The notes below the pieces were generated by a model that had not been told where the DNA came from, made no database searches, and saw only the letters and a list, made by a program, of their open reading frames with translations. Below, piece by piece: positions 39,885 to 51,413 of a stretch of 55,161 nt of DNA. A program made the translations under genes and the position numbers. The stretch is from positions 1 to 55,161 of the forward strand of contig JAUWOA010000004.1 of NCBI GenBank assembly GCA_030612365.1, in the 5' to 3' direction. Every line of letters begins with the position of its first letter. Position 1 is the first letter of the stretch. Origin of the DNA: Candidatus Thorarchaeota archaeon (GTDB taxonomy: Archaea > Asgardarchaeota > Thorarchaeia > Thorarchaeales > Thorarchaeaceae).

Positions 39885-41153
39885 CTAGTGCTGCTTGAAC
39901 TCTGTGATTCGCTCTAATTCACCCTGGATAAATGACTCGATGATGGATTCAACATCAGACACGCCTTCCGGTAGTTCATAGACTGCAACCAACTCTGACC
40001 GAAACACACTGAATGCGCCCCTCCCGATGTCAGCCGCAATCACGGAGTTAACTCCTTTTCCCGCAATCAAGCTTTCTACAGCGAGAAGACCGCGCTTTTT
40101 GTCTGCCGTAGATCCGGGATTTTCTATAGACTTGACTGTCATCACTGTCTTCTCTGCGATTTCGACGACACAGAAATATGATGCTTTCGCGAAATGTTGA
40201 CTCACTCGGGAAGAGATTCCCTCGTAGGTGCTGACTGGTATTGCCACTCTCAGAATCTCCTTTTTCTCAGGTTCTATATGGATCATAACGCTCTCGAGTT
40301 CAGGAATCATCTGCTTGAGGAGTGCTTCCATCTCATCAGTGAGCGCATGCGCATGGTCCAATGGCATTTCCTTACTCATTGTTGCATGCATCTCACAGAA
40401 GTAAACCGAACCGGCCACTCTTACTTTGATGTCGTGGACATCCACAACTCCATGGACTCCCTCAGCTACCCTCCGTATCTCTGCATGCCTTTCAGGAATC
40501 GGAGATGCGTCCATCAGACTCAAGCCTGAATCTCTCATCAGCACGACTCCCTCCCTCATGATATATGCAGCAAGCATTAGTGCCACGAAGATCTCAATGA
40601 TTGGATAACCAATGATAGAAAATATCACGCCTGCAAGTACGAGAACTCCTGCGTAAACATCCAGCATGGAGTGTTTGCTGTCAGCAATCAAGCTCGGGCT
40701 GCCAATTTCTTTGCCCACCCTACGCTTGTACTTTGAAAGAATGAAGTATATGATTGCAGAAGTCAAGGCAGCTGCAATCGGCAGAAACGTCCCGACAATG
40801 GGGGTGGGATCAGTGATACTACTAGCTGACTGCCAAGCGATTCCAGCTCCTGCAACGATAATCATGATAGCGACTACAAAGGAGGCCAAGGTTTCTCCCC
40901 TATAGTAACCGTAGGGGAATCGCTCATTGGGATGCCTACCTGCGAGCCGCAATCCTGACCACACCATAATCGAAGCGAAAATGTCCGCTAAGGAGTTGAT
41001 GGCATCAGCCATCAGAGCGACACTACCACTCAGCAGAGCAATGCTGCCCTTCATTATTGCCAGGAACACCATCAGCAGAGCAGAGGTCTTCTCCACTTTT
41101 TCTCCTTTGACATACTTGCTTCTGTCAGGTCCCGCATAATCATCAATCGACAT
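39885..41153 (-). CDS. CDF-family metal cation transporter fused to a NifX/NifB-like domain
   Basis: 422 aa. The first 200 residues are a six-helix cation diffusion facilitator, with metal-site residues in ADAINSLAD (helix II) and ADSKHSMLD (helix V). Residues about 205-290 are the cytoplasmic metal-binding domain, with EVHATM-type histidines (CEMHATM, DHAHALTDEM, MIHIEP). From about 300 to the end a dinitrogenase-iron-molybdenum-cofactor (NifX/NifY/NifB C-terminal) domain follows: LRVAIPVST...SRVSQHFAKASYFCVVEI...VIAADIGRGAF. CDF proteins export Zn, Fe or Mn; the added domain suggests an Fe-S- or metal-cofactor-linked control or chaperone function, which is inference. Confidence 0.88.
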   Translation of the reverse strand: MSIDDYAGPDRSKYVKGEKVEKTSALLMVFLAIMKGSIALLSGSVALMADAINSLADIFASIMVWSGLRLAGRHPNERFPYGYYRGETLASFVVAIMIIVAGAGIAWQSASSITDPTPIVGTFLPIAAALTSAIIYFILSKYKRRVGKEIGSPSLIADSKHSMLDVYAGVLVLAGVIFSIIGYPIIEIFVALMLAAYIMREGVVLMRDSGLSLMDASPIPERHAEIRRVAEGVHGVVDVHDIKVRVAGSVYFCEMHATMSKEMPLDHAHALTDEMEALLKQMIPELESVMIHIEPEKKEILRVAIPVSTYEGISSRVSQHFAKASYFCVVEIAEKTVMTVKSIENPGSTADKKRGLLAVESLIAGKGVNSVIAADIGRGAFSVFRSELVAVYELPEGVSDVESIIESFIQGELERITEFKQH

Positions 41154-45818: not shown

Positions 45819-46049
45819 ATATCTTCCATTCGGGCAGTAAAATGCCGGTAACCATGTTTCCGTCATGTTGCTAGGTATGAGCATCCCCCAAAAATATCCT
45901 TAAAAGGTTCCGCCCCAAGTGAAAATAGCTTCAGATTGCATTGGCAGAAAATGATGCCCGTACCTGCTAATGCATTTGCTATGCACAGAAGCTGTATCAA
46001 ACGTTGTGTATTGAATCATGCTTCGGGGCAAGCTTGCAAGGTGAATAAG

Positions 46050-49000
46050 ATGCGAGGGAATTGGCGGCCCGCTGCGGCTCTCTTGTTGGTTCTAATTGGC
46101 CAAGTAATCCTATTTGGGTCGCTTGGCAATCAAAACATTGCACGCCATAACAGTGGCGACCTATCACCCAAGCAAAGCCCAGTTGAGCCTCCTTTCATCG
46201 GTGATTTTCCAAGTCCATTCAGAAACCACGACGATGACATTGAATTCACACCTTACAGGGCATTCTCTTCATCAGAGGAACCAATCACTGGAGTTCTTGA
46301 CCCTGCAATTGTTGAGCAAAGTGGATATGCTTCATCCGGGAACATCAGCGCACGCACTGACACAATGAGCAATCTCGCCTATGACTTACCTCTGGATGAA
46401 GTACACAATTGGGTTGCGAGCGAAGCTGAAGTGAGCATTTGGAATCTCACGAAGGTATACGCAATAAACGGCACCTTCGAAGAGGGCGTTTCAGGCATCA
46501 ACGTGAACCCGAACGGCACAGTTGCGTATCATCCCCTTGGATGGGATGTCTACAGTAATAACACAAACGTAAACCAGGTGCAGATGGCAGCATTCGATTC
46601 GACAGGACGCAGCTATATCACAGCAGACAATTGGGGCGGAAAAGTAGGACAGAATGAACACGGACATTACCAAGACACGAGGATTCTCTGGACGCAGTTT
46701 GTTGATAATGCACCTTATACTGAAGATTTTATTCTCAGTTTCGATTACTTCTATTTGAGAGGTCCTATTGACAAGAATACAACTTATCCAATCACAGGGA
46801 ACTGCTCCATCACGGTGTTCGCTGATGGTAACCCCATATGGAACATGAGTCTTCTCACACTAGATAGGAGGGGAGTCTGGGAGAGCTCCGGGGAGCTGCC
46901 CATTACCGTGGCTGGGATTTCTGGCGCTTTTGATTTTGAGATCGGCTTGGTGATTGATGAAACTCTGGTTCTTGACAAAAGGTGGGATTACGACACCGAT
47001 GGCGCTCCTGATGGCATAGGTAACGCCGCATATATTACCGCATACCTAGATGATGTTTCATTCATTAAGGCAACCCCACCTACTCCTTCACAGGTAGATC
47101 TAGAATTCACAAGGGGGACTGAAGCCGTCGCAGTTACGGGCACTTCTGGCTCTGGAAGCGCAGTCATCACCAATGAGAGCTACTGGCAGATAAATCCGGT
47201 ATCGGTTGTTCTCTCCTCGAACACTAGTGTCTCCTTTGACTACAAGACCCGTTTGCTTTCGCACAGGTTTACTAACTCCAACTCGGAAACCGATATCTCA
47301 CATGAAGGAGTTGCGTATACTACGCAGTTTGGACTCAGTCCGGACCTAACATTATTCACTTACATCGGATTCCTTGGCGACTATGAGAATCCTAGCTTGA
47401 GGGTGGCGTATCCTATAGATTGGGAGAATGCAACAGTGCTTGATCCGTTTCTCTCTGACGTGACTTCTCAGTGTTCTTTGGGCTTGGGTTTCTTTGATGT
47501 ACCGGGGCATCTACTGGACCTACTTGGATGGTGGAAATTCATGCTCCAGTCACCCAATTATGCTAAGTCATTAACTCCGCAGATAGATGATGATGATGAC
47601 TGGCTGAATGAAACTCTCTATCGAAGCGGTAACAAGACACGGGCCCTGATTGAAATAGGAACTCCGTTAACAACTCCCGAAAGCTTTGACTTGGTGAATG
47701 TGTCTTGGATCCTACCCAATGGTACGTTCTGGTTCGATGAAACTCTAAATGGTGGGGAAGATGGTGAGATTTTCAGTTCTACACTTGAACTTGATTCATT
47801 GAATACAACTGCAGGGGTGTGGAGCGTAGAGGTCTTGTGGACAAATGGGACGGAGGTTGCTTACGACATTGCAGTATTCGAGGTTCACCATGTGGCTGAG
47901 CTGATTGCACTAGAGAGCCATATCGTGACTGAAAGCGGCTCAACAGTGATGAATTACGTCTACTATCGTGATGCTGAGAATGGCGAATATCTAATGGATC
48001 CATCTGCAACCATTCTGGCTAATTGGTCTGGAAGCACAAAGGAACTCCAGCCAAACAACATCCACCTCTACTGGGAACCGACTACTCCATTTGATACATC
48101 ATTGGTTGGTCCAGGTAATTCTTCAGTTCTTGTGGAGGCAAGTTGGGACTTCTTTGATAGTGCATCTTGTATCTTTATAGTGGAAGTTACCTACACAGAT
48201 AATGAACTCATCATCTATGACCTCGCAGTGGATGCTGGTCTCTTTGACACCTATGTATGCGAATTTCACTTTGAGGACAGATATGGCAACTACTTGGAGG
48301 GTGCATCAATTGTTGATGTGGTCGTATCCGGACCAACGGGCGGACTGATAGTCAATTGGGGCTCGTTCACTGATCTGGGATTCGGCAACTACTCGATCTC
48401 TTTCACATCTCAACTATCTGGCACATATCAGACAACGATAACTGCCGAAGCTGACTTCTACGAAGCTGCAGGAGCAACACTGCTTCTATACGTCGGAGAG
48501 ATTTCGACTGGCTTGGAGATACTGAACGGAACTGTCGGTCTTATCCCGTTTGGTCAAGACTTCCGCTTGGCAGTACGGTACTCGAACAGCACAGGTTATG
48601 GAATCGAGAATGCGAACATCACAATGACTAGTGTCAGCCCTGAAGGTGGTGTGACAGCCGGTACGACAATCGATGAGGGTGAAGGCGTCTATTCTCTCGT
48701 ACTAACCCCGCTTGAGTCAGATGACTTCACGATTCTAGTAAGCGCCAATATCACGAATTACCAAACACAGATTGAGCGCTTCACTCTATCCGTGGCGCCT
48801 ATCGCGACCGATCTGTATACTGCTTCAGGTAATTCATCTGCTTCGACTGTGTTTGAAACCATCTACGAGCTTGATTTGTATTATGTGAATACACAGGATG
48901 GCCTCAACATCAGTTTGGCTTCAATCCAAGTCGAGTTCACGTCAAATGAGACATTGAATTGGACTATCGAACCCTATGGTGACGGCTACATCTTGCGAAT

Positions 49001-51119
49001 TGAAGCTTATGAGCTGGGACGATGGGAACTAACTATTACTGCTCAGAAAGCGTTGCATCAAAAAGGTGTGATTCAATTCATCTTGTTCGTTACTGAAAAC
49101 CCGACCTCCCTTGATGTCCCAGTCATCCCTCCGTCGGTCTACATCGATGATATCTCCAGCTATGTTTTCACGTATCGCATTGAAGGCGGAGCGGGGGTTG
49201 TTGATGCCGACGTTAATTTTTCAGGCATTAATCCAGATTGGGTATCATTCACCCCAATCGGGGCTGGCAACTACAATATCACCTTTGAGGCGAATCAAAC
49301 TGGAACCTTTTCTTTTAACGTGATCTTTACGAAATACGGTTATCAGATGATCAATCAGCCAGTCACTTTATCCGTGAGGCTAATCGATACCGACCTGTAC
49401 ACAGCCTCAGGTAGTTCATCTGCTTCGGTTGTGTTTGGGACTGTCTATGAAATTGAGATGTATTATGAGAATTCATTGGAAGGCTTCAACATCAGTTCGG
49501 CCTCAATCCAAGTTGAGTTTACGTCTATTGAAGCATTGAATTGGACTGTCGAACCCCATAATGACGGTTACATCCTACGAATTGAAGCTGATGAGCTGGG
49601 ACGATGGGAACTAACTATTACTGCTCAGAAAGCGAATCATCAAACAGGATCTGTTCAATTCGTCTTGTTCGTTACTGAAAATCCAACTCTCCTTGATGTG
49701 CCAGTCATCCCGTCGACGGTCTACATCGGCAATATCTCCAGCTATGTTTTCACCTATCACATTGAAGGCGGAGTCGGGGTTGTTGATGCAAACGTTAGCT
49801 TTTCAGGTATTGACCCGGATTGGGTGTCATTCACTCCAATCGGGAACGGCAACTACAGCATCACCATTGAGGCGAATCAAACTGGAACGTTTTCTTTCAA
49901 CGTGATCTTTGCGAAGTACGGCTATCAGATGATCAATCAGCCAGTCGCGTTCCAAGTTAACAGAATCCCGTTGACGATTGAAATGGCCGCTCCATCTTGG
50001 ATTATCACTTCAGACCTTACCTTTAACCTCACCCTTATGGATGACACCGGCAAGCCGGTTTCGGGCGCTTTTGTCAATTATACAATTACACAAGGCGACG
50101 TAGAACTGTACCTCGGTTTGATGACAGAGGATCCAGATTCAAACGGCACCTACAAAGCAGCGATATCCCAGACTCGGGTGCCATGGACAGGCAATCAACT
50201 ATACAGCATCAAGATTTCCGTATCAAAAGAAAATTACCAGGTTGTGAATCAGGGACTTCTGGTTAACGTCCACGAATACATGCCTCCAGGTTATGAAGTG
50301 CAGATATTTGTCCAGACCGTTGTGCCTCAGGTTGCCTTTGTCATTGTTGCTCTTGTTTCTCTCGTCATTGGCCGACGCATGTATCGGACCAACAGGAGGA
50401 AGAAAGACCTTGCGATACTTGCTGTAAAGCGTCGGTTCGAGGACATACGTGGAATCCTCGGGATTATAGTTATCCACAAGGTAAGCGGCATAGCTGTATA
50501 CTCTAAGATTCTGAAAGGCGGGTTTGACGAGGGGATGATGTCCGCCTTCATCACAGCAATAACTCATTTCAGGGCTGAGTTCGAGGTGGAGAAACAACAC
50601 TGGGAATTCAACGTTGTTCCAATATCGGACATCATTAGCATTGTTCCCACAAGGAATCTACTATGTGCCTTCATAGTCGGTGCGAGACCCACAATGACTC
50701 TGGAGGACCGGATGGTCGGGTTTGCCCGATCCGTCGGCGCAATGTTCGACGAAACCATGGCGGCCGCACCCCGGGCAGTCATAGATGATGCAACCCAAGG
50801 GTTGTTTGACTATCTTTTCGATGACGTCATGGATGGTGCTCTGCTTCGCCAATACAGGGTCAAGAAAGATGTCCCCTACCCACGAAATCAGAAGTGTCTT
50901 CAGACATACCTTAAGGCGTATCCTCCTCAAGATGGATTCGGACTGGATTCGCTTGCTGATGGCATGGCCATGTGCGGGATTCAAGAAGGGAATATCTACC
51001 AGCAGATCATCGATGCAATTGAAAATGGCATCCTAGAGAGTATCGATCCTGAGGAGGAATATCCCGGTTTCCTGAAAGACAACGTTGAATCTGCTAATAG
51101 TGAATCCGCTGACCTCTAG
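46050..51119 (+). CDS. Giant surface protein with Ig-like repeats, one membrane helix and a cytoplasmic longin/roadblock-like domain
   Basis: 1,689 aa from ATG 46050, with AAGGTGA 6 nt upstream and a signal peptide directly after (RPAAALLLVLIGQVILFGSL); the open frame from 45936 would add 38 residues ahead of the signal. The ectodomain (to about 1415) is rich in beta-strands and N-glycosylation sequons. It ends in Ig/invasin-like modules, two of them a near-identical 194-residue duplication. A transmembrane helix (about 1420-1441, AFVIVALVSLVIG) and basic stop-transfer (RRMYRTNRRKK) follow. The cytoplasmic 248 residues begin with a longin/roadblock-like alpha-beta unit: ILGIIVIHKVSGIAVYSKIL and a helix GGFDEGMMSAFITAITHF (about 1461-1570). 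A further helical part follows. Such tails are typical of Asgard archaea. It could relay surface signals to small GTPases; that is inference. Confidence 0.8.
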   Translation: MRGNWRPAAALLLVLIGQVILFGSLGNQNIARHNSGDLSPKQSPVEPPFIGDFPSPFRNHDDDIEFTPYRAFSSSEEPITGVLDPAIVEQSGYASSGNISARTDTMSNLAYDLPLDEVHNWVASEAEVSIWNLTKVYAINGTFEEGVSGINVNPNGTVAYHPLGWDVYSNNTNVNQVQMAAFDSTGRSYITADNWGGKVGQNEHGHYQDTRILWTQFVDNAPYTEDFILSFDYFYLRGPIDKNTTYPITGNCSITVFADGNPIWNMSLLTLDRRGVWESSGELPITVAGISGAFDFEIGLVIDETLVLDKRWDYDTDGAPDGIGNAAYITAYLDDVSFIKATPPTPSQVDLEFTRGTEAVAVTGTSGSGSAVITNESYWQINPVSVVLSSNTSVSFDYKTRLLSHRFTNSNSETDISHEGVAYTTQFGLSPDLTLFTYIGFLGDYENPSLRVAYPIDWENATVLDPFLSDVTSQCSLGLGFFDVPGHLLDLLGWWKFMLQSPNYAKSLTPQIDDDDDWLNETLYRSGNKTRALIEIGTPLTTPESFDLVNVSWILPNGTFWFDETLNGGEDGEIFSSTLELDSLNTTAGVWSVEVLWTNGTEVAYDIAVFEVHHVAELIALESHIVTESGSTVMNYVYYRDAENGEYLMDPSATILANWSGSTKELQPNNIHLYWEPTTPFDTSLVGPGNSSVLVEASWDFFDSASCIFIVEVTYTDNELIIYDLAVDAGLFDTYVCEFHFEDRYGNYLEGASIVDVVVSGPTGGLIVNWGSFTDLGFGNYSISFTSQLSGTYQTTITAEADFYEAAGATLLLYVGEISTGLEILNGTVGLIPFGQDFRLAVRYSNSTGYGIENANITMTSVSPEGGVTAGTTIDEGEGVYSLVLTPLESDDFTILVSANITNYQTQIERFTLSVAPIATDLYTASGNSSASTVFETIYELDLYYVNTQDGLNISLASIQVEFTSNETLNWTIEPYGDGYILRIEAYELGRWELTITAQKALHQKGVIQFILFVTENPTSLDVPVIPPSVYIDDISSYVFTYRIEGGAGVVDADVNFSGINPDWVSFTPIGAGNYNITFEANQTGTFSFNVIFTKYGYQMINQPVTLSVRLIDTDLYTASGSSSASVVFGTVYEIEMYYENSLEGFNISSASIQVEFTSIEALNWTVEPHNDGYILRIEADELGRWELTITAQKANHQTGSVQFVLFVTENPTLLDVPVIPSTVYIGNISSYVFTYHIEGGVGVVDANVSFSGIDPDWVSFTPIGNGNYSITIEANQTGTFSFNVIFAKYGYQMINQPVAFQVNRIPLTIEMAAPSWIITSDLTFNLTLMDDTGKPVSGAFVNYTITQGDVELYLGLMTEDPDSNGTYKAAISQTRVPWTGNQLYSIKISVSKENYQVVNQGLLVNVHEYMPPGYEVQIFVQTVVPQVAFVIVALVSLVIGRRMYRTNRRKKDLAILAVKRRFEDIRGILGIIVIHKVSGIAVYSKILKGGFDEGMMSAFITAITHFRAEFEVEKQHWEFNVVPISDIISIVPTRNLLCAFIVGARPTMTLEDRMVGFARSVGAMFDETMAAAPRAVIDDATQGLFDYLFDDVMDGALLRQYRVKKDVPYPRNQKCLQTYLKAYPPQDGFGLDSLADGMAMCGIQEGNIYQQIIDAIENGILESIDPEEEYPGFLKDNVESANSESADL
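48803..49966 (+). repeat. Tandem 582-bp duplication inside the giant surface gene
   Basis: Units 48803-49384 and 49385-49966 are collinear and in frame, each 194 codons. They begin with TDLYTASG-SSAS and end in KYGYQMINQPV. Several stretches are unchanged at DNA level (for example the codons for GRWELTITAQKA), so the duplication is recent or kept similar by recombination. Confidence 0.92.
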
Positions 51120-51359: not shown

Positions 51360-51413
51360 AGTTGTACCACAAAAACTGAATAAATATGAGTTGTACCATG
51401 GAAAGCGAATAAA
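51360..51413 (+). repeat. Tandem 25-nt repeats directly upstream of a 47-aa gene
   Basis: Units 51360-51384 and 51389-51413 both start AGTTGTACCA and end GAATAAA. They match at 20 of 25 positions, with 29 nt between starts. The second ends in the ribosome binding site of the 47-aa gene. Placement is that of an operator or TATA-overlapping regulatory site; function is inferred. Confidence 0.7.

Follow-up and report, generated by a model that had tools for sequence, protein, structure and literature searches.

The window analysed here, that is, the whole stretch of 55,161 nucleotides from a Candidatus Thorarchaeota contig, contains a long frame that is open up to a TAG stop codon and matches its own genome at 100% with no internal stops (Table 1). 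Eight bases 5' of the ATG at 46050 lies the sequence AAGGTG and, further upstream, a TATA-like element (CCTTAAAAGG) is found near 45900; a longer product, starting from a TTG at 45936, is possible. The surrounding genes have housekeeping functions, with DNA ligase, 6-pyruvoyl tetrahydropterin synthase (PTPS), and folE2 upstream and MetRS downstream. In the intergenic stretch ahead of MetRS (51360-51413), a 25-base repeat (AGTTGTACCA...GAATAAA) occurs twice, 29 bases apart. Elsewhere in the window, positions 39888-41153 encode a cation efflux transporter and a dinitrogenase iron-molybdenum cofactor-type domain in one fusion protein.

Table 1. Features of the gene and of the encoded protein, in window coordinates
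Feature	Position	Strand	Basis
Entire gene for a single-pass surface protein of 1,689 aa with a longin tail in the cytoplasm	46050..51119	+	Open frame
Signal-peptide-like N-terminal helix, residues 1-27	46050..46130	+	Hydropathy; hydrophobic N-terminus in full-length relatives
Conserved head of the ectodomain, in two blocks, residues 78-720	46281..48209	+	Identity among Thorarchaeal relatives
Stalk of Ig-like repeats, residues 721-1415	48210..50294	+	Pfam Invasin_D3, Filamin, Big_1
Stalk repeat copy A, residues 904-1090	48759..49319	+	141/187 residues same as copy B
Stalk repeat copy B, residues 1098-1284	49341..49901	+	Repeat of copy A
Transmembrane helix, residues 1421-1441	50310..50372	+	Hydropathy 2.39; K/R 0 outside, 9 inside
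Basic juxtamembrane helix MYRTNRRKKDLAILAVKRRFEDIRGI, residues 1444-1469	50379..50456	+	Longin spacing in membrane members; K14/D19 invariance
Longin domain, MON1/FUZ/HPS1 first-longin type by profile, residues 1470-1600	50457..50849	+	HMM, hhalign, secondary-structure order; Foldseek (weak model)
Putative C-terminal winged-helix-like segment, residues 1610-1667	50877..51050	+	Low-confidence model; alignment pattern; weak MCM_C match

Membrane topology and ectodomain

A first-pass annotation of this DNA described the protein as a giant ectodomain joined through one helix to a cytoplasmic tail, and this arrangement is borne out by several lines of evidence. The hydropathy profile shows hydrophobic stretches at residues 7-27 and about 1421-1441 and none convincing in between, while two weaker hydrophobic segments beyond the membrane helix fall on the first strand and on later strands of the tail domain. 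There are 40 N-x-S/T sequons before the helix, where shuffling the same residues gives 14.3 (none of 2,000 shuffles reaches 40), and none in the tail. Within 20 residues of the helix, Lys and Arg number zero outside and nine inside, and all membrane members examined, which come from several Asgard families, show the same bias (0-3 outside, 4-10 inside). A signal peptide, one membrane helix, a positive inside flank, and sequons outside together make up the picture of a single-pass exported surface protein. Nearly every full-length membrane member that was read has a signal peptide, a large ectodomain, one helix, and a longin, with 46-61 residues between the start of the helix and the start of the longin in all membrane members; the hydrophobic N-terminus is generally kept among the full-length ones, the Thorarchaeal member L054 being without one in the frame as called. 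In the case of the soluble relatives of about 300 residues, the longin lies right at the start of the protein, and in two proteins without a membrane helix the longin is fused either to an FG-GAP/BBS-type propeller and winged helices (L137) or to zinc-finger-like and winged-helix/UFL1-like parts (L140). Given the sequons and charge flanks, together with the soluble relatives and these two cytosolic fusions, the tail is cytoplasmic; no relative with the tail on the outer side was found among the members examined for topology. The winged helices of the cytosolic fusions (L140:724-2895, L137:1365-4424) match PCI, DDRGK, and E3 UFM1 ligase models.

The ectodomain spans about 1,390 residues, very close to the 1,400 or so proposed in the first-pass annotation, and its adhesin-like character, also proposed there, is suggested by the Ig-like, invasin- and filamin-type repeats recognized in the sequence of the stalk. 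In the window protein these repeats match Pfam Invasin_D3, Filamin, and Big_1 below the curated cut-off (E 5e-6 to 1e-3), and Ig-like repeat families are over the curated cut-off in the relatives L042 and L045; a stalk unit of 187 residues is duplicated with 75% identity. The head is 30-93% identical in Thorarchaeal relatives, with many invariant W, N, G, and P residues; it is common to all Thorarchaeal members and extends to two further Asgard families (L135, a member of f25, E 2.6e-33; L055, of a non-Thorarchaeal family, with a match over residues 315-674). Searches with the head found no PDB relative and assigned no fold to it. Outside the Thorarchaeal and head-sharing members the ectodomain differs, and the helix and the longin are kept. 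Surface adhesins with invasin, Big_1, or filamin repeats share the Ig-like stalk with the window protein, but are not known to have a cytoplasmic longin.

Identity of the cytoplasmic tail

The tail comprises residues 1447-1689, slightly more than the 1455-1689 first delimited, and its 243 residues contain one longin. The sequence of the window tail gave nothing significant in Pfam, NCBIfam, or PDB sequence searches. A tail profile reaches distant members across the phylum, in whose alignment the strand-helix pattern is plain, and a few of these have weak matches to Pfam Fuz_longin_1 (best E 0.0077). Short longin proteins that exceed the curated cut-off of Fuz_longin_1 occur in 7 of 20 Asgard genomes. 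An Asgard longin HMM, built from 27 segments of which some are below the Fuz_longin_1 cut-off, matches all 58 of the 58 family members (E 1e-20 to 7e-4), including the window protein (E 6.7e-4 in a set of 330 sequences), and has few matches beyond the family, mostly to further longins next door. Profile-to-profile comparison by hhalign gave values of 96.1% for the Thorarchaeal tails and 99.4% for the other members against Asgard MON1-type longins, compared with 0.3 and 0.9% against reversed longin profiles as a control. The PF19036 cut-off is passed only by other Asgard longins, the soluble relatives scoring 12-18 bits against 26.1 and the window tail also remaining below it. Residues K14 and D19 of the tail are invariant in Thorarchaeota.

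Structure prediction agrees with this relationship at low confidence. Two AlphaFold runs, with the window protein and three close relatives as the alignment, reached a pLDDT of 42 and 38, with elements in the order strand, strand, helix, strand, strand, helix, helix; compared with a longin, where two strands are followed by a helix, three strands, and two helices, one strand is missing in the pLDDT 38 model, and the expected order is also visible as a pattern in the alignment. The 50 best Foldseek matches of the weak model are almost all chains of the roadblock/longin class, among them LAMTOR, TRAPP sedlin, and AP2 small chains, none of them significant (E at least 0.027, TM 0.2-0.3), so that the modelling would support a longin fold without proving it. 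Judged by profile comparison, on which the fold assignment rests, the tail belongs with longin domains and specifically with the first longin of MON1/FUZ/HPS1; of the longin/roadblock-like module suggested in the first-pass annotation, the longin half is retained. That the tail is instead a roadblock/LC7 domain is very improbable, since the roadblock-like placing of a helix ahead of the first strand, the LAMTOR roadblocks near the top of the Foldseek list for the weak model, and a weak MAPKK1_Int match in one member (E 0.036) are outweighed by hhalign values of only 9.9% (Thorarchaeal tails) and 36.1% (other members) against Asgard roadblocks, by two helices following the sheet, as in the longin layout (PMC10933270), and by Pfam searches without a Robl_LC7 (PF03259) match. 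Two further identities were set aside: an R-SNARE longin, as PF13774 is never above its cut-off in 20 Asgard genomes, and the NPR2 family, as PF06218 has no real match.

Behind the longin there seems to be a winged-helix-like segment, which appears as helix-helix-helix-strand in the low-confidence model and as a conserved pattern in the alignment, with a weak match to the MCM_C winged helix in a single member.

Distribution of the family and known longin proteins

Searching the Asgard genomes with the tail gave matches in 194 of 228 genomes and 54 of 62 genera, counts that take in soluble relatives and weak matches; none was found in viral contigs. The closest tail relatives in the genome collection are Candidatus Thorarchaeota contigs, with 84-90% identity over the tail. 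Several Thorarchaeal genomes contain three to four full copies, which are sometimes arranged in tandem. Relatives show the same architecture, which excludes both a fusion by chance and a false join in the assembly. Giant single-pass surface proteins of this kind form a family spread across the Asgard archaea, to which the window protein belongs. A tree of 85 longins groups the receptors together, the two cytosolic fusions falling among them, and the soluble forms and the MON1-type longins make separate groups; with a short domain and several long branches, this grouping is indicative.

The best sequence relationship to a known system, reached through Asgard intermediates, is that with the first longin of MON1/FUZ/HPS1 (PF19036; tri-longin Rab exchange factors), with which the tail shares the helix motif D-x-x-L-x-S-G-F-x-x-A-I-x-x-F. 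These factors are soluble and heterodimeric with three longins per chain, whereas here one longin is carried by a giant membrane protein. The longin R-SNAREs (VAMP7, Sec22, Ykt6; PF13774) also have a membrane-attached longin on the cytoplasmic side, but in the order N-terminal longin, SNARE motif, and C-terminal anchor, and with no ectodomain, instead of ectodomain, helix, and longin. In NPRL2 and NPRL3 of GATOR1, the longin is followed by winged helices, a similar combination to the one that seems to occur here, but these are soluble regulators of Rag GTPases, unlike the window protein. An Asgard category of "NPRL2-like longin" has been described (PMC9834061). Short and paired Asgard longins (asCOG longins, and the Asgard longin modelled in PMC10933270) are of the same phylum and longin subtype, but they are cytosolic proteins of 130-450 residues with neither ectodomain nor membrane helix; fusions of Asgard GTPases with longin and roadblock domains have been reported as well (PMC10933270). 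A further paper (PMC10936438) describes Asgard multidomain proteins with Vps28-C, in which a similar mix of longin, Ig-like, and HTH/PCI domains occurs and whose longins are suggested to be able to activate small GTPases; these proteins are ESCRT-linked by description, and the passage on them gives no giant-ectodomain single-pass layout. In the literature searched, a library with few subscription papers, we found no report of a giant single-pass surface protein with a longin tail: the longin domain is known, and the architecture is apparently new.

Gene context and proposed role

Small GTPases are encoded by the dozen in Asgard genomes, and longin and roadblock proteins are numerous there too. 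In genome G105, a longin gene and then a Ras-family GTPase gene (Pfam Ras 5.9e-47) come after the receptor gene on its strand, these two overlapping; in G188 (L187) the GTPase gene comes next to the receptor gene and the longin gene after it, and in G130, G126, and G127, all of one genus, a GTPase gene follows the receptor gene. Among same-strand downstream genes, 6 of 60 encode GTPases, compared with 9 of 435 (2%) for other genes (p = 0.005), in a comparison that was framed post hoc and in which one genus contributes three of the six cases; over all six flanking genes (7/290) there is no enrichment. No GTPase, longin, or roadblock gene adjoins the window gene or most of its Thorarchaeal relatives, and among other Asgard lineages only a few have a GTPase gene next to a relative. 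These neighbourhoods lend limited support to a GTPase link, which we infer for the receptor family.

We lean somewhat towards a giant surface receptor family whose longin would pair with another longin, the pair then binding or regulating a GTPase at the contact site. The head and the Ig-like stalk are exported and lie outside the membrane, where the ectodomain probably binds a neighbour, a polymer, or another copy, and the membrane helix and the basic juxtamembrane helix keep the longin near the inner membrane face. There, by analogy with MON1-CCZ1, the receptor longin would most likely pair with another, soluble longin through its central helix and sheet edge, and the pair may bind or regulate a Ras/Rab/Arf-type GTPase, with the winged-helix-like end possibly contributing a further protein contact. 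In MON1-CCZ1 and Fuzzy-Inturned, the Rab is contacted by the first longins of both subunits, which form the Rab-opening site (PMC12383261). The receptor reading is plausible. The gene, the topology signals, the relationship to longins, and the conservation in several Asgard families are established here; that a ligand is bound, that longins pair, that a GTPase is bound, and that there is any exchange or activation are steps that we infer. More tentatively, the receptor longin and soluble MON1/CCZ1-like longins might act throughout the Asgard archaea as transmembrane GTPase regulators, switching Ras/Rab-type GTPases upon contact outside the cell, as a forerunner, in surface signalling, of the longin exchange factors of eukaryotes; this wider proposal is possible rather than probable.

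The proteins may, on the other hand, be surface adhesins in which the longin tail serves as a passive anchor or as a tag for sorting, tying them to trafficking, ESCRT, or cytoskeletal partners and conveying no contact signal inward. The likeness of the stalk to invasin, Big_1, and filamin repeats would suit such a role, and eukaryotic longins, as in VAMP7 and Ykt6, often serve in sorting or autoinhibition instead of nucleotide exchange. The ESCRT-related Asgard proteins that combine longins with Ig-like and HTH/PCI domains, as described in PMC10936438, point the same way. We consider a passive tail rather unlikely, as in several lineages the GTPase and longin genes found downstream suggest a GTPase partner and the longin varies among many paralogs, unlike one uniform tag. 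It is more doubtful still that the receptor acts through its C-terminal segment, for instance in scaffolding or nucleic acid binding, with the longin as a mere dimer platform: models and alignments do place a helical segment with a wing-like strand behind the longin, and cytosolic relatives with the same longin have several winged-helix, PCI-like domains, but the segment is far less conserved in sequence than the longin, and the tails have no match above cut-off to any winged-helix family. As a receptor family, widespread and in multiple copies, these giant ectodomains with a MON1-type longin would be a concrete candidate for the input side of GTPase switches, and they are relevant to the prominent surface proteins that Lokiarchaeal cells and their protrusions display (PMC9834061).

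Several further gene arrangements were observed in the genome collection. In Thorarchaeota, adjoining genes of about 303-319 and 409-450 residues (L168:17000-22000 of G000:C114; L166, L167, L164, L170, L176, L179) both start with MON1-type longins, the larger seeming to contain a further longin/roadblock-like part, and this conserved pair is similar to a MON1-CCZ1-like couple in minimal form. Asgard proteins of 130-140 residues that stand alone (L156, L157, L159, L161, L163, L175) match Fuz_longin_1, several of them over the curated cut-off, and tandem soluble proteins of about 300 residues (L147:1223-3003 and L148) have the longin of the present family followed by a second conserved domain. 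In several members of the Asgard family f2 (L182:8223-10306, L200:1678-3862), the receptor gene adjoins the same two genes, of about 420-449 and 270-276 residues, the shorter of which encodes a putative fructose-bisphosphatase. Two or three roadblock genes clustered with an Arf-family GTPase gene (G000:C24, G006:C34, G010:C205, G013:C2, G016:C68) are conserved across Thorarchaeal genomes and are Ragulator-like by position.
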